From the NCBI RefSeq assembly GCF_000016185.1, contig NC_011420.2, forward strand, positions 1,508,501-1,572,500: a stretch of 64,000 nt of DNA, written 5' to 3'. Both the position numbers and the translations under genes were made by a program. Source of the stretch: Rhodospirillum centenum SW (lineage in GTDB: Bacteria > Pseudomonadota > Alphaproteobacteria > Azospirillales > Azospirillaceae). The notes below the pieces were generated by a model, which saw only the letters and a program-made list of their open reading frames with translations, was not told the origin of the DNA and did no database searches. Positions within the stretch are counted from its first letter, which is position 1. The number at the start of each line of letters is the position of its first letter. Of the stretch, positions 19,355 through 29,340 are shown piece after piece.

Positions 19355-20080
19355 ATGGATGGCACAGCCGCGGGACGCTTCCCGCGGATGCCGAGAGCGT
19401 TTCGAATGATCGCATACCACACGACCTTGACGGCCCGCACCGCCGGGCAGATCCGGCTCAGCGAAGAACGCTATGCCCTGGCGGCCGCCGCCGGTAACGA
19501 CGGCCTCTATGACTGGGATCTGCGGACCGACCGGATCTACTACTCCCCCGGCTGGAAGGCGCTGCTCGGACTCGCCGAGGAAGACGTGGGAAACAGCCCC
19601 TCGGAATGGCTGGATCGGGTCCATTGCGAGGATGTGATCTGGCTGCACGCGACGCTGGACGCTCAGGCCAGTGCAGGCGGCAAGCCCTTCCAGATCGAAT
19701 ACCGCGTCCGCCATGCCAACGGTGGCTGGCGCTGGATGCTCTGCCGCGGCATCGCCGTGCTGGATGCGGAGGGCGAGCCGCAGCGCATCGTCGGCTCGCA
19801 GATCGACATCACCGACCGCAAGGTCGCCGAGGAGGGACTGCGCCTCAGCGAGGAACGCTACGCCCTGGCGGCTGCGGGCTCGAACGACGGGCTCTGGGAC
19901 TGGCGGGTGCCGGAGGGAGAGGTCTACTACTCCGCCCGCTGGGCCAGGATGCTGGGCCTGGGCGAGCGGGAGATGACCGGGACCATCGAGGACTGGTACG
20001 CCCGGGTGCATCCGGACTGCCTTCCCGCCCTGCGTGCGGCGATGGACCTGCACCTGTCCGGCGGCAGCCGCCAGCTGTGA
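19355..20080 (+). pseudogene. 5' fragment of a PAS-PAS-GGDEF-EAL signalling gene, cut by a Mu-like element
   Basis: Host coding sequence runs to 20075; the next bases belong to the element and give a stop at 20078-20080. The fragment holds a first PAS domain (GLYDWDLRTDRIYYSPGWKAL to the PAC end IVGSQIDITDRK) and most of a second (GLWDWRVPEGEVYYSARWARML), ending GGSRQL. The missing part resumes at 27882 inside a downstream frame (QLEHEFRMLHAS). Starts at 19307 (GTG), 19388 and 19406 are alternatives to 19355. Without the insertion the protein would be about 725 residues. Confidence 0.9.
20071..20075. repeat. Left 5-bp target-site duplication (CCAGC)
   Basis: CCAGC directly precedes the element's TG terminus and recurs at 27882-27886 directly after its CA terminus. 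Joining the host sequence through one copy restores the PAS reading frame (RQLEHEF). Five-base duplications are the hallmark of Mu-type transposition. Confidence 0.9.
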
Positions 20081-20239
20081 CACGACAGATGGTCTTGGAG
20101 AGGACCGGGATATTCCGAGAATTACCGGGACGTATCGAGACACCGCAGAAACCCTGGGGTTCGGGGCGCCTTCGGTGGGGACCTGCTCCAAAACCATGTG
20201 ACGCACCGAAAACGGCCTTTGCGACAGATGGTCGTGGAG
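20080..20239. promoter_or_regulatory. Left-end transposase-site array (L1-L3)
   Basis: Three copies of a roughly 20-bp site are present: L1 at 20080-20100 on the plus strand, L2 at 20185-20204 on the minus strand and L3 at 20221-20239 on the plus strand. All contain ATGGTnnTGGAG. Their offsets from the terminus (about 5-25, 110-129 and 146-164) mimic the spaced L1/L2/L3 layout of Mu attL, so binding by a MuA-type transposase is inferred. Confidence 0.8.
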
Positions 20240-20377
20240 GCGCCCCAGGGTCGACGCGGAGGGCGAAAGAGGCCCCGTCGAAGCGGGTGACGGTACCGCG
20301 GCGCCCGGCTACCACCAAAGATATTGCCCACCGCTCACGGTGTCGATAGGTTCCAGCCTGCCGCGATCTGACGATCC
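20240..20377. other. Non-coding left-end segment of the element
   Basis: This stretch between the left site array and the stop of the XRE repressor gene holds no open frame I would support and no further ATGGTnnTGGAG site. Confidence 0.5.
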
Positions 20378-20953
20378 TCAGGCCCGGCGTTTACTCTCGG
20401 CGCCGACCGGGGCTTCGCGGAGGTCGCGGCGCAGCTGGGCGAGCATGCCCTTCACGGCGACCTTGCGGTCGTTCGGGTCGTCGTAGGCGCCGACCAGGTC
20501 GGCGTGCATGCGGGCCGCCTGGCGCCCCAGGTCGCGCGGCGGAAGCCCTACGTTTTCCTCACGATAGACGGCGATGATGCCGTCGACGAGCAGGCCCATC
20601 AGGTCCTCGTCGACGGCCACCGCTCGCCCTTCAACCGCCAGCGGAGGCTCAGCCTCTACCGGCGGTGCCGACGCATGCCTGCGCTCCATCGGGACATCAC
20701 CGCCGGCGAGCCATTCGAGCGAGACGCCGGCGGCTTCAGCCATGCGAGCCATTGCGAAGAATTGCGGTTTCGCCTTCCCGTCGCGCCATTTTCCAATCTG
20801 CTCGTCGGTGACGCCGACAATCGTCGAGGTCGCGCGCAGGCCGCCGATCCGTTCAATGGCCGTTGAGAGACGGCTTCCGACTTCCGGGCTGTAACCCGGA
20901 ACGGCGGCGCTCTTCCCCCTATTCTCTTCCGACTTATCATAAGTGTCTGACAT
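20378..20953 (-). CDS. Phage XRE-family repressor-like protein
   Basis: This 191-residue protein is taken from the ATG at 20953 (MSDTYDKSEEN); an upstream start at 20998 is possible. An N-terminal helix-turn-helix (GSRLSTAIERIGGLRATSTIVGVTDEQIGKWRDGKAKPQ, split across residues about 26-64) is followed by MARMAEAAGVSLEWLAGG. The C-terminal half is helical and lacks the LexA/S24 self-cleavage motifs, so it would not be RecA-induced. It is transcribed leftward, divergent from ner, in the position of an immunity repressor in transposable phages. Confidence 0.78.
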   Translation of the reverse strand: MSDTYDKSEENRGKSAAVPGYSPEVGSRLSTAIERIGGLRATSTIVGVTDEQIGKWRDGKAKPQFFAMARMAEAAGVSLEWLAGGDVPMERRHASAPPVEAEPPLAVEGRAVAVDEDLMGLLVDGIIAVYREENVGLPPRDLGRQAARMHADLVGAYDDPNDRKVAVKGMLAQLRRDLREAPVGAESKRRA

Positions 20954-21120
20954 ACCACCATTTTCCGCGATACCGACGAAGGACGGCACATCTCGCAAGT
21001 CGGAACCGATTTTTCCCGTTGACGCAGCCGTTTAACGTCGGCATTGTCAGAACAGATGTTTTGAATTGACACCGACAAAAACCGGCCCTGCCAGGCCGGC
21101 GCGAGATGGAGACGAACCCG
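20954..21120. promoter_or_regulatory. Divergent early control region between repressor and ner
   Basis: This AT-richer 167-bp gap separates the leftward repressor from the rightward ner remnant, as in Mu's early control region. A possible rightward promoter is TTGACG near 21017 with CATTGT 17 bp further. Related half-sites TGTCTGAC (about 20943) and TGTCAGAAC (about 21045) could be operators. These assignments are by eye. Confidence 0.4.
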
Positions 21121-21516
21121 ATGGCGAAGCGACGTCCGAAGGGCTGGCACAAGGAGGACATCAAGGCGGCGATCCGCAAGCGCGGCACCACCGTGACCGA
21201 CCTTGCCCTGTCCAACGGCCTGGGCTCCAGCACCTGCCGGGTCGCCCAAAACGCTCGCGACAGATGGTGGTGGAGCGGATACGCCGTCCGGTCGGAGGCC
21301 GAACCCAAAGATTTCTGCGGCCGTCGCAGTAATGGCGAGGAGCGGAGTTCTCTACTCGAAGTCGGAAAGAAGTGCCGCCGGGTTCGGAGTTTCGTCCGGC
21401 TTCTCCGAAATTTTAATCCTGTCAGTGTGTTGAAGACCGTTCCTCAAGCATACGTAGCGGGCCGGACAGCCTGGAATTCGGCCGGCTCCGGAGGCAGTGC
21501 CGACAACTGGACTTAG
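21121..21516 (+). pseudogene. ner: Truncated Ner-like regulator
   Basis: Residues 1-45 (GWHKEDIKAAIRKRGTT, then LALSNGLGSSTCRVA) match the N-terminal two-thirds of Mu Ner, the negative regulator of early transcription. Homology stops at about 21255, where an ATGGTnnTGGAG site (21257-21276) begins. The rest of the open frame, to 21516, is read through unrelated repeat-like DNA. The Ner C terminus (the segment around WPKGE...IWPSRY in Mu) is missing. An ATG at 21106 is an alternative start. In intact phages transposase A follows ner; here it is absent. Confidence 0.75.
21257..21325 (+). repeat. Internal copy of the element's terminal site plus flank
   Basis: GCGACAGATGGTGGTGGAGC at 21257-21276 is nearly identical to end site L3. 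After a 35-bp gap comes TTTCTGCGG preceded by CCGAACCC. The reverse complement of the left end shows the same order: site L2, a 33-bp gap containing CCGAACCCC, then TTTCTGCGG. This looks like a diverged second copy of end sequence, or a MITE-type repeat, abutting the ner truncation. Confidence 0.65.
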
Positions 21517-21590
21517 GCATACCGCTAACGCGATCTTTCGGGGACTGGCTTGACCAAGAAGAAGTGGGCAGGGCAGGACCTGATGGATAA
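21517..21590. other. Short segment with no supported gene
   Basis: This DNA lies between the ner-remnant frame and the leftward terminator. I see no transposase remnant in any frame here. Confidence 0.4.
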
Positions 21591-21619
21591 GAAAAAGGGC
21601 CGCCCCTTTCGGAGCGGCC
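21591..21619 (-). terminator. Intrinsic terminator for the leftward regulator gene(s)
   Basis: On the minus strand GGCCGCTCC-GAAA-GGGGCGGCC forms a perfect 9-bp hairpin with a tetraloop, followed directly by CTTTTTC. It lies 119 bp past the stop of the Mu-type HTH gene and should end leftward transcription coming from 22849 or 22313. Confidence 0.85.
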
Positions 21620-21737
21620 TAATCAACCAAGGAAACGGCCAGAAACTCTTAAACCGAGGCTCAACAACGGCTTCGGCGGGTTGATCGCCATGGGCGCGCT
21701 ACCGCCGACGGTGGCGCTTTCCAAGTAATGCGCAAGG

Positions 21738-22313
21738 TCATGCGGGGAGCCTGATGCCCATCCGCGCAAGCGCCTCTTCCACCTGATGGGCGGTGGGGGC
21801 ATCCAGGCTTGGCGGCAGGGTGGCTTCCAGGCGTGCGACGGCGGACGCGACGGAGGCGACGGCGCCGCTCTTGACCAGGCGCAGGAGGGGCAGCGTCCAC
21901 GGCGGCGCCGTCGTGGTGTCGTCGGCAAGCACCGGCCGGGGCGCCGCCGGCAGGCGCAACTCGATGCGCTCCGGCTCCGGCTCCGGGATCGCCTCGACGA
22001 TGAGGGCGATGAGCTGGTCGAAGGCGCGCGGCGGCAGCGACGTGACGTGGTACTCGAACCGGATGCCGCCGCGCCCATGGACCTCGCGGACGCGCCACGC
22101 CTCGGCGCGGGCAAGCCGAGTGATGCCGGCCTTGGTCGCCGGCAGGCCGGGCAGGCGCACGCCCGCCAGTTCCGCAGCCGAGAACCACTCACGCACGCGC
22201 CCCTTATCGCGGAGCACCTGGACAATGACGGCTTCCAGGAAGTGGGCACGGCGGCGCAGGTACGCCAGTTCCTCGGCACCGACGGATACGGTGAACTCGA
22301 AACGATCGGTCAT
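21738..22313 (-). CDS. Mu-type HTH protein, Mu c-repressor-like
   Basis: This 191-residue protein contains the Mu-type DNA-binding domain shared by Mu repressor and the MuA N terminus. The signature REWFSAAELAGVRLPGLPAT is followed by KAGITRLARAEAWRVR and GGIRFEYHVTSLPP (residues about 40-95). The remainder is alanine- and proline-rich with a helical C terminus. There is no DDE catalytic core, so it is not a transposase. The size and leftward orientation fit a Mu c-like repressor; a transposase N-terminal fragment is less likely because the C-terminal half is a different, apparently intact domain. Confidence 0.8.
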   Translation of the reverse strand: MTDRFEFTVSVGAEELAYLRRRAHFLEAVIVQVLRDKGRVREWFSAAELAGVRLPGLPATKAGITRLARAEAWRVREVHGRGGIRFEYHVTSLPPRAFDQLIALIVEAIPEPEPERIELRLPAAPRPVLADDTTTAPPWTLPLLRLVKSGAVASVASAVARLEATLPPSLDAPTAHQVEEALARMGIRLPA

Positions 22314-22390
22314 TGCAGAACCCCCTCACCACAACGGGCGGACCTTGGCGGCCCGCCCGAGTTGGAATGTCAAGATTGGCCGGCGGCCGG

Positions 22391-22849
22391 TCACTCCCCG
22401 GTGCCGATACGCCGGCCCGCGTCGTCCTTGTCGTCCGACACCTTGAGCTTGGGGTAGGTGTCGCCTTCGCCGTCATCGTCCCCGGTAGCGGCGGCGCGGG
22501 CCTCCCGCAGGGCGTTTTCCCGGCCTTCGGCGAAGGCACGCACGTAGTCCCTGGCGTACCTGCCAACGTCCTCTTCAAGCATGTGGATCATGACACCACC
22601 GTTGGTGAGGCTGTTCTCCACCGCCCGTAGAAGCACCGCGAGGCCGCTCCGTTCGCGGCTCGACATGGCCTCTTCCGCCTCCGTCAGGGCGTAGCGAACG
22701 AAGGCCACGACGCATGCGGCGTCGTCCATCGCGTCCATGTAGCGGGCGCTGCGCCGACCACCAGTGACGCTCTCGGGGTCGATGAAGGCGAGAGAGGGGT
22801 ATTCGCGGGCCTCGGGGGCGGTGCTATGTTGATTGGTAGCCTGAGACAT
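22391..22849 (-). CDS. Element-encoded hypothetical protein, 152 aa
   Basis: It begins at the ATG at 22849 with a good Shine-Dalgarno (GGAGAAG). The sequence (MSQATNQHSTAPEAREYPS...) has a helical core (YMDAMDDAACVVAFVRYALTEAEEAMSS, split) and an acidic C terminus with GDDDGEGD. No family is recognised. The gene is transcribed leftward from a promoter region that contains half of an 11-bp inverted repeat and is upstream of the Mu-type HTH gene, possibly in one transcript. Confidence 0.65.
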   Translation of the reverse strand: MSQATNQHSTAPEAREYPSLAFIDPESVTGGRRSARYMDAMDDAACVVAFVRYALTEAEEAMSSRERSGLAVLLRAVENSLTNGGVMIHMLEEDVGRYARDYVRAFAEGRENALREARAAATGDDDGEGDTYPKLKVSDDKDDAGRRIGTGE

Positions 22850-22919
22850 GGGGCTTCTCCATCGTCTTGGGTCAGGCCCGGTGGTGTGCGTCACCACACC
22901 ATCGGGCCGCCGGTTATAA

Positions 22920-22974
22920 CCGTACAAAACAGCTTGTAACACGCACTGGACTTCGCGGCAAATGTTTTGTACGG
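22920..22974. promoter_or_regulatory. 11-bp inverted repeat in a divergent promoter region
   Basis: CCGTACAAAAC at 22920-22930 and GTTTTGTACGG at 22964-22974 are perfect inverted copies 33 bp apart. A rightward promoter may be TGGACT-17-TACGGT, with the -10 overlapping the right arm. A leftward one may be TTACAA-15-TATAAC, with the left arm between its boxes. This symmetry suggests one operator controlling both genes, probably through the adjacent ribbon-helix-helix protein. Confidence 0.7.
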
Positions 22975-23001
22975 TCCTATCCGGACAGAAGGAGATAGAA
23001 T

Positions 23002-23199
23002 GTGGCACGGCCAACCGACGATCCCAAGACAGCGCGCTTGGAGATCAGGGCGACCCCGGCCCTACTGGCGGCGGTGGATGAATGGCGGCAGGGGTGCGAG
23101 GTTGTACCTCCCCGCGCTGAGGCAGTCCGATACTTGATCGAACTCGGACTTGCGGCAGCGACACGGCGTCGCCAAGAGGCCGACGGCGACGAACCCTGA
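23002..23199 (+). CDS. Small ribbon-helix-helix (Arc/CopG-like) DNA-binding protein
   Basis: This 65-residue protein starts at GTG 23002 behind a strong AGAAGGAGA Shine-Dalgarno. The pattern KTARLEIRATPALLAAVDEW followed by RAEAVRYLIELGLAAA is the beta-strand/helix/helix fold of Arc/MetJ/CopG repressors, in which the strand residues read the DNA. It sits just after an 11-bp inverted repeat that flanks its own promoter, so autoregulation and control of the divergent gene are likely. Two terminators follow it, so it is a single-gene unit. Confidence 0.75.
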   Translation: MARPTDDPKTARLEIRATPALLAAVDEWRQGCEVVPPRAEAVRYLIELGLAAATRRRQEADGDEP

Positions 23200-23204
23200 A
23201 GACG

Positions 23205-23235
23205 CGGCCCCGCCCCAAGCGGGGCCGTTGCCGTT
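23205..23235 (+). terminator. Stem-loop after the RHH gene
   Basis: CGGCCCCGC (23205-23213) and GCGGGGCCG (23219-23227) form a 9-bp stem with a 5-nt loop, followed by TTGCCGTTTGT. It lies 6 bp past the RHH stop. Confidence 0.75.
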
Positions 23236-23240
23236 TGTCC

Positions 23241-23265
23241 AACCGGAACGATCCTTCCGGTTTTG
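23241..23265 (+). terminator. Second stem-loop with T-run
   Basis: AACCGGAA (23241-23248) and TTCCGGTT (23255-23262) pair with a 6-nt loop and lead into TTTTGCC. It is in tandem with the hairpin just upstream. Confidence 0.65.
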
Positions 23266-23533
23266 CCGCTGGCGGAGCGGCGCGAGCGAAAACCGCCTCA
23301 GAAGCCCGTGGACACGCCTTAGCGCCTCGGCCGCCTCCATCTTACCGAACTACCCCCTAAGGGGCGCCCTACCCCCTTTAAGACCCGTTTAACGGCGACG
23401 CCATGAGGCATCCGCCGGGGCGGGTGCGTGGCGTGCTTCGGCGGATGGTTGGCCCGGAAGTAGTTCAGGGCAGAGGATTGACCGGAAGTCCTTCAGTCTT
23501 GACGGAGTGAAGCAAAAAGCCGGGGCGCGGTCA
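23266..23533. promoter_or_regulatory. Control region upstream of the Mor-like genes
   Basis: This leader holds a direct repeat, CCGGAAGTnnTTCAG, at 23454-23468 and 23482-23496, 28 bp apart centre to centre, just upstream of the first Mor-like gene. It also contains TACCCCCT twice around 23345-23378. In Mu this position holds the middle promoter; here an activator or operator site is inferred. Confidence 0.45.
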
Positions 23534-23989
23534 ATGTGTGGCGAGAATGTCAACAAGCGAAGGGGCGGGCTTGACTTCGAGCTTCGCCGCAACTTCTACG
23601 GCGAGACGACGCGCCTGCTGTTGGATGCGCTTGGCGACAAGGCGGAAGCCTTCATGGTCGCCTTCGGCGGTGGCGAGGGCCGGTTGATACCTGCCGCCCC
23701 GCACCCCGACCATCCCTTCGTGTCCGTCATCGGCCTTGAGAAGATGCGAGCGCTGGTGGACGCGCTGGGCGGAGAGCGGGTTTACATCCCCACGGTCAAG
23801 CGGGCGGCGAGCCGCAAGTTCCTGATCGCGCAAGCGATCATGCGTAACGAGGTGTCGCGGTCCGAAATGGCGCGGTGCTGCGGCGTGACGGCGCGGTATG
23901 TGCGGATGGTGGCGCGGGAGATGGAGGCGGCAGGTGTCGCCGTGCCGCCTCCCATGACGAAACCGCCCCACCGGGATGAACCCGAGTGA
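23534..23989 (+). CDS. Mor-like transcriptional regulator
   Basis: This 151-residue protein is taken from ATG 23534; GTG 23507 is an alternative. The N-terminal half (LDFELRRNFYGETTRLLLDALGD) is followed by LGGERVYIPTVKRA, a hydrophobic beta element typical of Mu Mor/C activators. A C-terminal helix-turn-helix (EVSRSEMARCCGVTARYVRMV) follows. In Mu, Mor switches on the middle promoter that leads to late gene expression. It overlaps the next gene by 14 bp. Confidence 0.62.
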   Translation: MCGENVNKRRGGLDFELRRNFYGETTRLLLDALGDKAEAFMVAFGGGEGRLIPAAPHPDHPFVSVIGLEKMRALVDALGGERVYIPTVKRAASRKFLIAQAIMRNEVSRSEMARCCGVTARYVRMVAREMEAAGVAVPPPMTKPPHRDEPE

Positions 23990-24560
23990 GGCGGCCAGTC
24001 CTGCAGGGAAGTGGAGTCTACCCGTGACACCAACGAACATAGACGCGGTGGTCAGTGCCGCCAGCCTGACAGATGACAGTCCGGTGGTGCCGCTGCTGAA
24101 TCACCTGGAGCCGGATGCCCTGTTCCTCGGGGTCGCGCGCGACTTCTGCCGCCGGTCGCCGACGATGGCCGACAGGATCATGCCGCCCCTGGTGGTGGCG
24201 CTGGCGAAGGCCGGCGGATACGACGCGGCGCTCACGCTGGTGTGGAAGCGCGGCGGGCAGTCGCCGCGCCTGCCGTCGCCGTACCGGATCGCGGGGTCTT
24301 GGCTGGCGGAGATCGTCGGCAAGGCGACGGCTATCCGCATGTACCACACGCTCGAAGCCCGCCAGACGGCGGAAGGGCGCGTCCACATTCCGACCCGCGC
24401 CGCCGTGCGCAAGTGCGTGCGCCTAGCGTGCCTGGAGCACCTGGCGGCGGCGGGCCTGTCGAAAGCCCGCATCGCCTCGGTTCTCGGCATGTCCGAGCGC
24501 ACCGTCTGGCGGCACATCTCCGACCGCCGCAAGGCGGACCTCTCTCGCAAGCAAGGATGA
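23976..24560 (+). CDS. Second HTH regulator with Mor-like C terminus
   Basis: This 194-residue protein begins within the end of the previous gene. Residues about 125-190 repeat the Mor-like layout: GRVHIPTRAAVRKCVRL, then a helix-turn-helix LSKARIASVLGMSERTVWRHI and a basic tail. The N-terminal two-thirds is helical and unlike Mor. It may be the C-like late activator, since head genes start 7 bp downstream. No close family is recognised. Confidence 0.6.
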   Translation: MNPSEAASPAGKWSLPVTPTNIDAVVSAASLTDDSPVVPLLNHLEPDALFLGVARDFCRRSPTMADRIMPPLVVALAKAGGYDAALTLVWKRGGQSPRLPSPYRIAGSWLAEIVGKATAIRMYHTLEARQTAEGRVHIPTRAAVRKCVRLACLEHLAAAGLSKARIASVLGMSERTVWRHISDRRKADLSRKQG

Positions 24561-24566
24561 TCCCGG

Positions 24567-25517
24567 ATGCCCGATGAACTGGACATCGAACTCTTCCGCC
24601 CCGGCACCTTCACGGCGGCCGGCGGGCGGAACCTCGACTTCTCCGCCGATACCCTGGCGCAGATCGCGGCGGGCTACGACCCGGCCGCCTATGACGCGCC
24701 CGTGGTGGTGGGGCACCCGGCCGGCGACGCGCCGGCCTACGGATGGGTGAAGGGGCTCCGGATCGAAGGCGGCCGCCTGAAGGCGACGCTGCACAAGATC
24801 GACCCGGCCTTCGCGGAGCTGGTCAAGGACGGGAAGTACCGCAAGGTGTCGGCGTCGTTCTACATGCCGGACCACCCGAACAACCCCAAGCCGGGCGCCC
24901 TGTCGCTTCGGCACGTCGGCTTCCTCGGGGCGCAGCCGCCGGCCGTGAAGGGCCTGAAGCCGGTGGAGTTCGCCGAAGGCGACCGGGTGGATCGGGTGGC
25001 GGTGGTGGAGGCGGACGGCTTCGCCGACTTCGCCGAAGGCGGCGCCACCATGGCGGAGCTGCTGGCGCAAGTCCGCGCCCTCAGCAACCAGGTCAACGAA
25101 CTGCGGGCCAGGAACGCCGACTTCGCGGAGACGGAGCGCGCCGCCAAGAGCCGCGAGAACCGGGCCTTCGTGGCGACCCTGGTCAAGGAAGGCCGGTTCT
25201 GGCCCGGCTTCGCCGACGGCATGGCCGCCTTCCTCGACAGCCTGGACGGGCCGGGCCACGTGATCGAGTTCGCCGAACACGGCGAGACCGTCACCCGCTC
25301 CGGCGGCGAGTTCATGCGCGACTTCCTCCGGCGCCAGCCCGTCACCATCCACTTCGGCGAGCTGGCGGCGCCGGATGCCGCCGCCGTCGGCGAACACGCC
25401 ACCGAAGACGAACTTGCCGAGCGCATCGCCGGCTTCGTGGAGAGCGAGCGGGCGGCCGGCCGCACCGTCTCCTACTCCGACGCTCTGCGCGCCGTCACCC
25501 TTTCCCGCAATGCCTGA
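24567..25517 (+). CDS. Mu gpI-like prohead protease/scaffold
   Basis: This 316-residue protein matches the Mu-like prophage I protein family. The N-terminal protease-like domain has IELFRPGTFTAAGGRNLDFS, YDAPVVVGHPAGDAPAYGWV, YRKVSASFYMPDHPNNPKPG and LRHVGFLGAQPPAVKGL. The C-terminal part (MAELLAQVRALSNQVNELRARN...) is a coiled-coil, scaffold-like region. In Mu-type phages this protein shapes the prohead and is cleaved during maturation. It directly precedes the capsid gene, as in intact phages, but portal and terminase genes, which normally come before it, are absent. Confidence 0.87.
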   Translation: MPDELDIELFRPGTFTAAGGRNLDFSADTLAQIAAGYDPAAYDAPVVVGHPAGDAPAYGWVKGLRIEGGRLKATLHKIDPAFAELVKDGKYRKVSASFYMPDHPNNPKPGALSLRHVGFLGAQPPAVKGLKPVEFAEGDRVDRVAVVEADGFADFAEGGATMAELLAQVRALSNQVNELRARNADFAETERAAKSRENRAFVATLVKEGRFWPGFADGMAAFLDSLDGPGHVIEFAEHGETVTRSGGEFMRDFLRRQPVTIHFGELAAPDAAAVGEHATEDELAERIAGFVESERAAGRTVSYSDALRAVTLSRNA

Positions 25518-25535
25518 TCCCTAGGACGCACGCCC

Positions 25536-26468
25536 ATGAAGCATCCCTTCCCCGCGAGCCCCGACCTGACCTCGGTGGTCATGGCCTATCGCAACCCGCG
25601 CATGATCGCCGACGAGGCGCTTCCCCGCTACCCGGTGGAGAAGATGAACTACCGCTACAGCGAGTACGACCTGGCGGAGGGCTTCACCGTCCCCGACACG
25701 CTGGTCGGCCGCAAGAGCGCGCCGACGCAGGTGGAGTTCAAGGCCGTCGGCCGCGACCGCAGCACCAAGGACCACGCCCTCGACGACGTGGTGCCGGTGG
25801 TGGACGTGGAGAACGACCCCAACGGCCGCAACCGGGTGGCCCGCACGTCGGAGCGCCTGGCGGACCTGATCGCGCTCGACCGCGAGATCCGCACGGCCAA
25901 CCTGATCTTTGATGCGGCGCAGTACCCGGCGGGCCACAAGGAGACGCTGGCGGGCACCAGCGTGTTCGGCGACCCCAACAGCGACCCCATCGGCATCGTC
26001 ACCGACGCCATGGACGCCCTGATGATGCGTCCGAACGTCATGGTGTTCGGCCGCTCGACCTTCACCCGCTTCGCCCGTCACCCGCAGGTGGTCAAGGCCG
26101 TCAACGGAACCTCCGGCGACAGCGGTTTCGCCCGGCGCCAGCAGGTGGCGGAGCTGTTCGAGGTGGAGAAGGTGCTCGTGGGCGAGGCCTTCGTGAACAT
26201 GAACCGGCCGGGGCAGACGGCAAACCTTCAGCGGGCCTGGGGGCCGCACCTGGCGCTGTACTACCTGGCGCCGCTGGGCGGGCCGGACGAGAACCCGTCG
26301 TTCGGCTTCACGGCGCAGTACGGCAAGCGCATCGCCGGCGACAAGGAAGACCCGAACATCGGCATGCGGGGCGGCTATCGCGTGCGCGTCGGCGAAAGCG
26401 TCGATGAGGTGATCGCCGCGCCCATGCTGGGCTACTTCCTGGAGAACGCCGGCGCCGATCCGGCCTGA
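25536..26468 (+). CDS. Phage major capsid protein
   Basis: This 310-residue protein follows the gpI-like protease by 18 bp. Features typical of the major capsid proteins of B3/BcepMu-type transposable phages are YNYR-like YRYSEYDLAEGFTVPD, LDREIRTANLIFDAAQYP, RPNVMVFGRSTFTRFARHP, FEVEKVLVGEAFVNMN and the C-terminal LYYLAPLGGPDENPSFGFT. The reading frame is uninterrupted and full length, so it could still make protein. An HK97-like fold is expected by family but not provable here. Confidence 0.82.
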   Translation: MKHPFPASPDLTSVVMAYRNPRMIADEALPRYPVEKMNYRYSEYDLAEGFTVPDTLVGRKSAPTQVEFKAVGRDRSTKDHALDDVVPVVDVENDPNGRNRVARTSERLADLIALDREIRTANLIFDAAQYPAGHKETLAGTSVFGDPNSDPIGIVTDAMDALMMRPNVMVFGRSTFTRFARHPQVVKAVNGTSGDSGFARRQQVAELFEVEKVLVGEAFVNMNRPGQTANLQRAWGPHLALYYLAPLGGPDENPSFGFTAQYGKRIAGDKEDPNIGMRGGYRVRVGESVDEVIAAPMLGYFLENAGADPA

Positions 26469-26533
26469 TGAACCGGCGGCCGGCGGCCCATGGGGGCAGG
26501 CCGGCCGCGAAAGACCGAAAGGGGCGCGACCCG

Positions 26534-27169
26534 ATGCAGTACCTGACGAACGAAGCGGCCCGCGCGGCCCTGGCGGAGCGGCTGGCGGCCATTAAGGCCA
26601 AGGTAGAGCGGCGGGAGAGTGTCGCACGGCTGGAACAGCGGCTCGACCGCCGCATCCAGGAGCTGGCAGAGGAGAGGAAGGCGGCGCTGCTGGCCTGTGC
26701 CGCGCTTCAGGAAGGCGCGGAGACGGTGGAGGCGTGGCGGGAGCGCACCAAGGCGGCCGGTGAGCACGAAAGCCAGGCGACGGTTCTGCGGGCGACCCTG
26801 GAAGGTCTTCGCGTCGAACTGGCGGCGGCCCGTCGCGAGAAGGCCGGCCTGGTGGCGGAGCTGAACGACGACTGGCGCGACTTCTGGCGCCGCTACGGCG
26901 ATGCCCTGGTGAAGGAGTACCGCGAGGCGGCCGAAAACCTGGTCTTGCGCTACCTGCATCCGCTCCGAGCCATCGGCGCGAAGGGTCACGGCATGTCGCG
27001 CCTGTGCGCCGGGGCCGTGGAGGGCATCGGGTGGTGGGAAGAGGGCAACGTCCGCCGCACCGTCTGGCCTGCCCACGACACCCGCGACGCCGCTGGCAAC
27101 AGGATCGAGGCGGCGGACCTCTACGGCCGCCTCACGGCCGATCTTCTGGCCTCCGGGGAGGACGCATGA
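26534..27169 (+). CDS. Element-encoded coiled-coil protein
   Basis: This 211-residue protein starts at ATG 26534. Residues about 1-115 are strongly helical and charged (LAAIKAKVERRESVARLEQR, EERKAALLACAALQEGAE), predicting a coiled coil. The rest contains a W/Y-rich segment (LNDDWRDFWRRYGDALVKEY). No family is recognised; it may be a head-associated or regulatory phage protein. Its stop overlaps the next ATG (ATGA). Confidence 0.6.
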   Translation: MQYLTNEAARAALAERLAAIKAKVERRESVARLEQRLDRRIQELAEERKAALLACAALQEGAETVEAWRERTKAAGEHESQATVLRATLEGLRVELAAARREKAGLVAELNDDWRDFWRRYGDALVKEYREAAENLVLRYLHPLRAIGAKGHGMSRLCAGAVEGIGWWEEGNVRRTVWPAHDTRDAAGNRIEAADLYGRLTADLLASGEDA

Positions 27170-27405
27170 CGCTTCCGACCTTCCAGTGCGTCGGCGGCGT
27201 CTGGCGCTGGCACCTGGGAGACCAGGAACCCGAGGGGTGCCGCTACGTCATCGGCGAACCGTGGCGGCCGGGCTGGCGGTTCTGCCAACAGCCGATACAC
27301 GGCGAAGGCAGCTACTGCGAAGAGCACGCGAAGGCCTGCCTCACGCCGCTGAAGCGGAAGAAGGCGGCCGGCGGTACACGGAACCGAAGAAAGGAACGAG
27401 AATGA
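27166..27405 (+). CDS. GcrA-like zinc-motif protein, element-encoded
   Basis: This 79-residue protein has CRYVIGEPWRPGWRFCQQP followed by SYCEEHAKACL. The pattern CxxxIGxP...xFC...YCxxHxxxA is that of the C-terminal part of GcrA, the alphaproteobacterial cell-cycle regulator that acts with sigma-70 at methylated GANTC promoters. The N-terminal DNA-binding helix-turn-helix of GcrA is missing. The cysteines and histidine probably hold zinc. It is translationally coupled to its neighbours on both sides by ATGA overlaps. Confidence 0.65.
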   Translation: MTLPTFQCVGGVWRWHLGDQEPEGCRYVIGEPWRPGWRFCQQPIHGEGSYCEEHAKACLTPLKRKKAAGGTRNRRKERE

Positions 27406-27710
27406 ACGTGGGGGACCTCCTGAAGGCCCTGAAGGGCCTGCCCGCTGACGTGCCTGTGGTGTTCGATACCGGGCTCTACGGCCCGATCATCGACACCCGG
27501 ACAGTGGGGTGTGGACGTGCGTCGCCTGTACGAGGGCGGCGCCCATGCGGGCGGCGGCCAGTTTGTGGCGAGAGTGCGGATCGGCGACCGTCGGGTGGTG
27601 ATGGGGCTGGAAGGCGCCCCGCGCACGACCCCGGCAATCCGAGCACGCTTCAAGAGCGACGGGGAGGTGGTCCGGTTCCTGACCGAGCACGCGGACGGCC
27701 GCACCATTGA
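27402..27710 (+). CDS. Small element protein, probably frameshifted
   Basis: The frame starts with MNVGDLLKALKGLPADVPVVFDTGLYGPIID, a sensible folded-looking N terminus, but after about residue 36 it turns into arginine/proline-rich shadow sequence. The continuation that looks real (DVRRLYEGGAHAGGGQFVARV) lies in the +1 frame from 27511. A single-base insertion in GTGGGGTGTGG near 27501-27512, or a programmed shift, would join them. Confidence 0.45.
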   Translation: MNVGDLLKALKGLPADVPVVFDTGLYGPIIDTRTVGCGRASPVRGRRPCGRRPVCGESADRRPSGGDGAGRRPAHDPGNPSTLQERRGGGPVPDRARGRPHH

Positions 27711-29340
27711 TTGGTTGACGGCGGAGGCGAAAAGGCGCTTTGGTGATGCCCGCGCCCCCTCACGGTCGGCTATAGGACGCTTCGTCGTCCGCCTTCGCCG
27801 TCAGCACCACTTGCCGCGCAAGTACCGGGCCGCGCTCCACGACCATGTGTCGCGCGCTCCAGAACCATTTGGCGCGCTACACCAGCTTGAGCACGAATTC
27901 CGCATGCTGCATGCCTCCGGCGCGGAATGCTGGATGCTGGTGCGCGGCGCCGCGATACGGGACGGCAACGGCACAGCCCTACGCATGGCCGGGTCGATGT
28001 CGGACATCACGGCCCGTAAGCATGCCGAGGCGCAGCTTCTCTTCGACGCCTTCCACGACGGTCTGACCGGGCTGTCCAACCGTCACCTGCTGCTGGACCG
28101 CATCGGGCAGGCGATCGACCGCCGCCGGCATCCGACGGACGGACAGTTCGCCCTGATCCTGTTCGACCTGGACCAGTTCAAGGCCATCAACGACAGCCTC
28201 GGCACCGCCCTGGGGGACGAGGTGCTGCGCATCGTGGCCAGGCGGCTGGGCGAGGCCCGGCGCAGCGGCGACACCGTGGCCCGCACCTCGGTGGACGAGT
28301 TCGGCGTGCTGATGGACGGAGTCGCCGACGTCAAGGCCGCCATGAGTGGCGCCGAGCGGCTGGCCGCCGCGGTCTGCCGGCCCATCACCCTGCCCGACGG
28401 GCGGGAGATCGTGCTGACCTGCTCGGCCGGGCTCGCCATGTCCAACACGGGCTATGCCGCGGCAACGGACATGCTGCGCGACGCCAGCCTCGCCATGTTC
28501 CGCGCCAAGGCCGCCGGCCGCAGCCGGATCGAGGTGTTCGACGACGCCCTGCGCGAGCGTGCCCTCTCGCGGCTGCGCACGGAGTCCGACCTCCGGGTGG
28601 CGCTGGACAGCGACCAGCTCTTCCTGGTCTATCAGCCGATCATCCGCATGCAGAACGGCAGCATCGCCGGTTTCGAGGCGCTGGTGCGCTGGTCCCACCC
28701 GGAGCGGGGCACCATCCTGCCCGGCGAATTCATCGCGCTGGCGGAGGAGACGGGGCTGATCCTGCGCCTGGGCCGCTGGGCCCTGAAGGAAGCGGCACTC
28801 CAGATCAAGGACTGGCGCCGGCGCACGGGCCGCGACCTGTTCGTCAGCGTCAACGTCTCCGGCCGCCAGCTCATGGACGACGACATGGCCGCCGCCGTCG
28901 CGCAGGTGCTGGGGGAGACGGGCGTGGAACCCCGCGCCCTGAAGCTGGAGATCACCGAAAGCCTGCTGCTGGACGATACCGCCCGCTGCGTGCAGATGCT
29001 GCACGACATCCGGAAGCTGGGCGTCCGCCTCTGCCTGGACGATTTCGGCACCGGCTTCTCGAACCTCAGCTACCTGCACTCCTACCCGGTGGACACGCTG
29101 AAGATCGACCGCAGCTTCGTGCGGGCGGCCACGGCCGGCGACCGCCGGGCCGAGATCGCCCGCATCATCACCATGCTGGCCGCCGCCCTGGATCTGGAGG
29201 TGGTGGCGGAAGGCGTGGAGCGGGATGCGGAGGCCGCGTTCCTGCGCGACCTCCATTGCCAGTACGCCCAGGGCTACTTCTTCGCCCGGCCGATGCCGCC
29301 GGAGGAGGCCGAGCGCCACCTGCTGGTCCAGGCGGCCTGA
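27511..29340 (+). CDS. Fusion frame: element HTH-like N terminus joined to PAS/GGDEF/EAL host protein
   Basis: This 609-residue frame starts at GTG 27511. Residues 1-124 are element-derived, including EVVRFLTEHADGRTIDWL and an HTH-like ARAPSRSAIGRFVVRLRRQ. From residue 125 (QLEHEF) it is host sequence: the end of a PAS domain with its PAC (MAGSMSDITARK), a GGDEF domain (residues about 170-335) and an EAL domain (about 350-600). The cyclase signature is SVDEF instead of GGDEF, so cyclase activity is doubtful. The phosphodiesterase residues look intact: EALVRW, NVSGRQL, LEITES, DDFGTG, LKIDRSF, AEGVE and the Q of YAQGYFFARP. It may hydrolyse cyclic di-GMP if expressed. Confidence 0.75.
   Translation: MDVRRLYEGGAHAGGGQFVARVRIGDRRVVMGLEGAPRTTPAIRARFKSDGEVVRFLTEHADGRTIDWLTAEAKRRFGDARAPSRSAIGRFVVRLRRQHHLPRKYRAALHDHVSRAPEPFGALHQLEHEFRMLHASGAECWMLVRGAAIRDGNGTALRMAGSMSDITARKHAEAQLLFDAFHDGLTGLSNRHLLLDRIGQAIDRRRHPTDGQFALILFDLDQFKAINDSLGTALGDEVLRIVARRLGEARRSGDTVARTSVDEFGVLMDGVADVKAAMSGAERLAAAVCRPITLPDGREIVLTCSAGLAMSNTGYAAATDMLRDASLAMFRAKAAGRSRIEVFDDALRERALSRLRTESDLRVALDSDQLFLVYQPIIRMQNGSIAGFEALVRWSHPERGTILPGEFIALAEETGLILRLGRWALKEAALQIKDWRRRTGRDLFVSVNVSGRQLMDDDMAAAVAQVLGETGVEPRALKLEITESLLLDDTARCVQMLHDIRKLGVRLCLDDFGTGFSNLSYLHSYPVDTLKIDRSFVRAATAGDRRAEIARIITMLAAALDLEVVAEGVERDAEAAFLRDLHCQYAQGYFFARPMPPEEAERHLLVQAA
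27800..27875. promoter_or_regulatory. Right-end transposase-site array (R1-R3)
   Basis: Reading inward from the right terminus on the minus strand there are R1 at 27856-27875 (GCGCCAAATGGTTCTGGAGC), R2 at 27834-27853 (GCGACACATGGTCGTGGAGC) and a weaker R3 at 27800-27819 (GCGCGGCAAGTGGTGCTGAC). All face the same way and are closely packed, as R1-R3 are in Mu attR. The sites lie inside the coding sequence of the fusion frame. Confidence 0.78.
27882..27886. repeat. Right 5-bp target-site duplication (CCAGC)
   Basis: This is the second copy of CCAGC, directly after the terminal ...CTACA of the element. The host PAS codons resume here. Confidence 0.9.

Follow-up and report, generated by a model that had tools for sequence, protein, structure and literature searches.

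Laboratory mini-Mu elements are tools that retain both phage ends around a short interior, lack the full transposition module and need a helper's transposase; they are packaged by the phage terminase from the left end. Searches of the open-access literature that paired phage satellites or helpers with transposable, Mu-like or mini-Mu elements turned up no natural mini-Mu. The phage satellites that have been reviewed comprise P4-like elements, PICI, capsid-forming PICI, PLE and PICMI, and defective prophages have been proposed as proto-hitchers, a first step towards satellites (PMC11389934). The window analysed here, a whole stretch of 64,000 nucleotides from the chromosome of Rhodospirillum centenum SW, holds a short Mu-like element whose composite (hybrid) nature we consider close to certain.

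The short element and its insertion site

The element occupies positions 20076-27881 of the window (7,806 bp), has TG...CA termini (TGTGACACGACAG...GGCGCGCTACA) and splits a PAS-GGDEF-EAL gene. An earlier note on this DNA had claimed such ends, a 5-bp CCAGC duplication and exact restoration of the host frame, and the sequence bears this out: with the element and one CCAGC removed, a single uninterrupted PAS-GGDEF-EAL frame of 740 codons runs from 19307. As in Mu-like phages, TG...CA ends with transposase-binding repeats are combined with a 5-bp duplication. Family searches likewise agreed with that note on a Mu-like gene content (HTH repressor, truncated Ner, two Mor/C-like regulators, gpI-like protease and capsid) and on the absence of a transposase, returning no match within the element to transposase A/B, terminase, portal or tail proteins, nor to any defence family. 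To these observations we add a resident full-length prophage, a second (Mu c-like) repressor, a third binding site and a frameshift in the last gene. The ends, the left module and the binding repeats, the last predicted from sequence, are these:

20071..20075, no strand: target duplication, left copy CCAGC (sequence)
20076..21247, no strand: left end common to the resident prophage (G000:C1:1147843-1149014), 1171/1172 identical, sole difference at 20366
20083..20100, plus: predicted L1-type transposase-binding repeat CGACAGATGGTCTTGGAG
20186..20203, minus: predicted weaker inverted binding repeat
20222..20239, plus: predicted L2-type binding repeat CGACAGATGGTCGTGGAG
20378..20998, minus: HTH repressor of 206 aa, with the same protein sequence as its resident-phage counterpart
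21106..21247, plus: ner, cut by the junction after about 47 codons (family search and comparison with the resident)
21258..21275, plus: predicted third binding repeat CGACAGATGGTGGTGGAG, not present in the resident phage
27833..27881, no strand: right end common to the resident prophage, 49/49 bp identical, holding the R2 and R1 repeats
27852 (first base), minus: predicted binding repeat R2, within the shared right end
27874 (first base), minus: predicted binding repeat R1, within the shared right end
27882..27886, no strand: target duplication, right copy CCAGC (sequence)

A resident prophage with the same ends

A full-length prophage with the element's ends, which the earlier note had proposed to look for in the host, is present in the same chromosome, searched as one contig of 4,355,543 bp. 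This Mu/B3-like prophage spans 38,760 bp (G000:C1:1147843-1186602), and its recognised genes encode transposase A, B, gp27, the large terminase, portal, minor head, sheath, tape measure and baseplate proteins; the A, B, terminase, portal, sheath, tape measure and baseplate genes are intact. The shared left arm of 1,172 bp takes in the end, the repressor and part of ner; it occurs twice in the genome, and 81 relatives from the same order gave short weak matches only. A search of the genome for the Mu transposase C-terminal domain had the resident A gene as its sole match. The element thus carries both ends of a transposable phage of the same cell and no transposase of its own, as a mini-Mu does. 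Because it has the resident's ends and no Mu-type transposase other than the A gene turned up in the genome, the resident prophage is the obvious transposase source, and we conclude from these sequences that its transposase probably moved the element. The resident is flanked by GCAGC, unlike the element's CCAGC, and these different 5-bp duplications, together with the otherwise intact target gene, argue for a separate and recent insertion.

Interior genes and their ancestry

The left junction falls within ner, following 'GGGTCGCCC', and the third binding repeat adjoins it directly. From there to the right end the element encodes the following:

21738..22313, minus: Mu c-type repressor, 191 aa, with the Mu DNA-binding domain PF02316 and without the catalytic core
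22391..22849, minus: helical protein p152, 152 aa (predicted model, low confidence)
23002..23199, plus: small regulator of 65 aa that weakly matches phage repressors (phrog_4738)
23507..23989, plus: Mor/C-family activator, 160 aa (family search)
23976..24560, plus: second Mor/C-family activator, mor194, 194 aa (family search)
24567..25517, plus: gpI-like head protease/scaffold, 316 aa (family search)
25536..26468, plus: major capsid protein T, gpT type, 310 aa (family search)
26534..27169, plus: p211, 211 aa, after the capsid gene, a predicted long helical hairpin whose C-terminal part was modelled poorly
27166..27405, plus: 79-aa protein matching the GcrA C-terminal domain (family search)
27402..27832, plus: last gene, with a frameshift near 27500 and, in its second half, an HTH weakly like gp27/phrog_6738

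Comparison of these genes with the resident phage separates the middle of the element from its ends. The capsid protein is 55% identical to the resident's, the protease (I) 37% and the 160-aa Mor/C activator 43% over 84 aa; no other interior gene has a resident counterpart, except for the Mu DNA-binding domain common to the c-like repressor and A. The 6.6-kb interior is therefore not resident DNA, and the element cannot have arisen from the resident phage by simple internal deletion; the protein comparisons show that its middle belongs to another Mu-like lineage. The earlier note had offered two origins, a deleted prophage or a satellite using a foreign transposase: the first, as a simple deletion of the resident, fails on the foreign interior, whereas the use of another phage's transposase accords with the ends and the A gene. 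Since it is not a simple deletion, the element is best described as a hybrid that bears the resident's ends and is non-autonomous.

The start of this interior resembles a phage end. Its third repeat, at 21258, scores 29.1 against 13.4 for the best background site in the 64 kb, and aligns with the L2 region, upstream AAAACG included; repeat scoring of the resident prophage found no end-type binding site away from its ends. The repeat is followed on the minus strand by the Mu c-like repressor, the usual repressor place in Mu-like phages. It probably represents the L2 site of another Mu-like element, an assignment based on one 18-bp repeat plus AAAACG; the interior would then begin with the left end of that second element, whose transposase would have had the same specificity. 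We make no claim for an R3-like site at 27816, which is weak and scores near background level. A pattern scan of IMG/VR for the binding repeat gave 26 matches, none with phage kin nearby.

The main interior genes are open and tightly packed, with third-position GC of the coding type, and the capsid and protease genes look preserved. Near-invariant residues are kept at 44 of 48 positions in the capsid protein and 24 of 25 in the protease despite their long branches, which shows that both diverged under constraint. The protease linker is shorter than those of the resident phage and of B3, and most relatives have a further gene between protease and capsid that is missing here. No informative relatives were found for p211, p152 or mor194; a p211 match in genome G266 stands in a host context. 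The last gene runs into the right end without a stop codon, and its reading as a truncated gp27 is made uncertain by the better-placed, still weak match to phrog_6738. The 79-aa product (27166-27405), encoded past the capsid operon, has just the C-terminal domain of the cell-cycle regulator GcrA.

Further copies were sought with the element's capsid protein T as query. No second short copy was found in the genome itself, in 82 genomes of the order, in 385 of the class, or among phages and plasmids; nor was one seen, where gene order was readable, among the best 80 of 128 T-relative loci from an alignment scan of about 85,000 genomes or among the best 80 of at least 562 IMG/VR loci. Labelled T loci with readable gene order lie in ordinary phage contexts, and many of the 21 labelled loci that lack a detected terminase, portal and F despite more than 4 kb of upstream sequence carry transposase A/B or tail genes. 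The collections searched thus yielded no recurrent element with a conserved gene set in several genomes. The earlier note's suggestion of a new kind of satellite with several independent short insertions was accordingly not borne out, and the single occurrence that it had named as favouring decay is what these searches gave.

Several of the loci recovered deserve description in their own right. One candidate for a bare parallel (L036:3419-10348, G215) proved to be a phage with a GpA-type terminase and an S49-type protease, in which a Mu/B3-type capsid protein stands beside its usual neighbour gene. Another, a 10-kb Vibrio parahaemolyticus plasmid (L047:1-10073, NZ_CP034307.1), was ruled out by its tape-measure gene; it encodes ParA, a serine recombinase, the Mu/B3-type capsid protein and a 786-aa tape-measure-like protein, has few other phage genes and is possibly a reduced phage-plasmid. 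Loci L130, L268 and L269 (IMG/VR 3300042281_000566) belong to a phage that has almost the same capsid protein as the resident prophage and similar late genes. Its early region (repressor and transposase) differs, which points to an exchange of early modules in this phage group. In the Mu-like phages at L132, L133, L146 and L054, terminase and portal are encoded on the strand opposite protease and capsid, unlike in B3, and in three of the four F is as well.

Origin of the element and comparison with known systems

We favour, with moderate confidence, the interpretation that this transposable-phage element is composite and non-autonomous, the natural equivalent of a mini-Mu, and that the resident transposase inserted it as a short unit. 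The middle, beginning at the L2 region of a second Mu-like element, would have recombined onto the first phage's left arm, inside ner, and onto its right end; the resident transposase A (with B) would then have moved the resulting short unit into the PAS-GGDEF-EAL gene. The shared repressor would keep the hybrid silent; it would be replicated upon induction of the resident phage and may be packaged by the resident terminase from the shared left end. Insertion as a 7.8-kb unit appears likely from the recency of the event and the clean ends, and it is also the more economical account, given how recent the insertion is and that an end-type site lies in the interior. Against it stand the single known copy, the cut ner and the frameshifted last gene, as in a decaying element.

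The same three features would suit an ordinary remnant, in which a full-length mosaic sibling of the resident prophage inserted and then lost its transposase, packaging and tail genes by several deletions. The missing genes agree with this account, as does the exchange of early modules in the phage group, exemplified by the IMG/VR phage with a nearly identical capsid and a different early region. However, a single difference in the 1,172 bp of shared end and an intact target leave little time for several deletions, and the main genes are open. An end-type site in the interior would moreover be unexpected of one phage with deletions, given that the resident has none away from its ends, and deletion alone would not place a weakly gp27-like HTH after the capsid gene. 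We regard this account as possible but doubtful.

Membership of an established family of transposable-phage satellites, which would build their own heads from their own capsid and scaffold and borrow the helper's transposase, terminase, portal and tail, is quite improbable. The presence of a helper whose ends and repressor match, a compact operon with protease and capsid preserved on long branches, and a helical 211-aa gene directly after the capsid gene would all fit such a family; yet no other member appeared in the genome sets and best-ranked loci described above, the ends were acquired very recently, and ner and the last gene are damaged. We hold it improbable, too, that the element is the first natural transposable-phage satellite, using its helper's transposase through borrowed ends, sharing the helper's repressor for joint induction and building heads from a protease-scaffold and capsid protein of its own, which the helper's terminase and portal would serve to fill. 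That the direct repeats and TG/CA ends arose by coincidence in a decayed island, for which only the shortness of a 5-bp repeat speaks, can be dismissed, given the letter-for-letter match of both ends to a complete prophage.

The hybrid mini-Mu-like element that we favour can be placed among known systems as follows. With the resident prophage it shares the left 1,172 bp, the right 49 bp, the repressor, the binding repeats and a 5-bp target duplication; the resident differs in being a 38,760-bp phage with A, B, terminase, portal, head and tail genes, and its capsid and protease are of another lineage. Like Pseudomonas phage B3 (Beetrevirus) and other Mu-like phages, the element has a gpI-type protease, a gpT-type capsid, ner, an opposite-strand repressor and Mor-type activators, but it measures 7.8 kb and is without transposition, packaging and tail genes and the gene intervening between protease and capsid. 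It resembles phage satellites in being small and helper-dependent, and its own capsid genes recall capsid-forming PICIs; it differs from satellites in having phage-transposase ends instead of an integrase, in its single copy and in being known from sequence alone. Where capsid-forming PICIs combine an integrase with capsid, portal and terminase, it matched protease and capsid only.

What is new here is a resident full-length prophage with the element's ends, together with an interior that, judged by its genes, is from a different Mu-like phage. The locus shows two Mu-like elements joined at a predicted end-type binding site, and a natural mini-Mu beside a complete phage with the same ends makes helper-driven mobilisation of a defective transposable phage testable in one strain. 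Laboratory mini-Mu is the closest comparison, from which this element differs in being natural and in having an interior derived from a second Mu-like lineage, which contributes a repressor, activators and capsid genes of its own.
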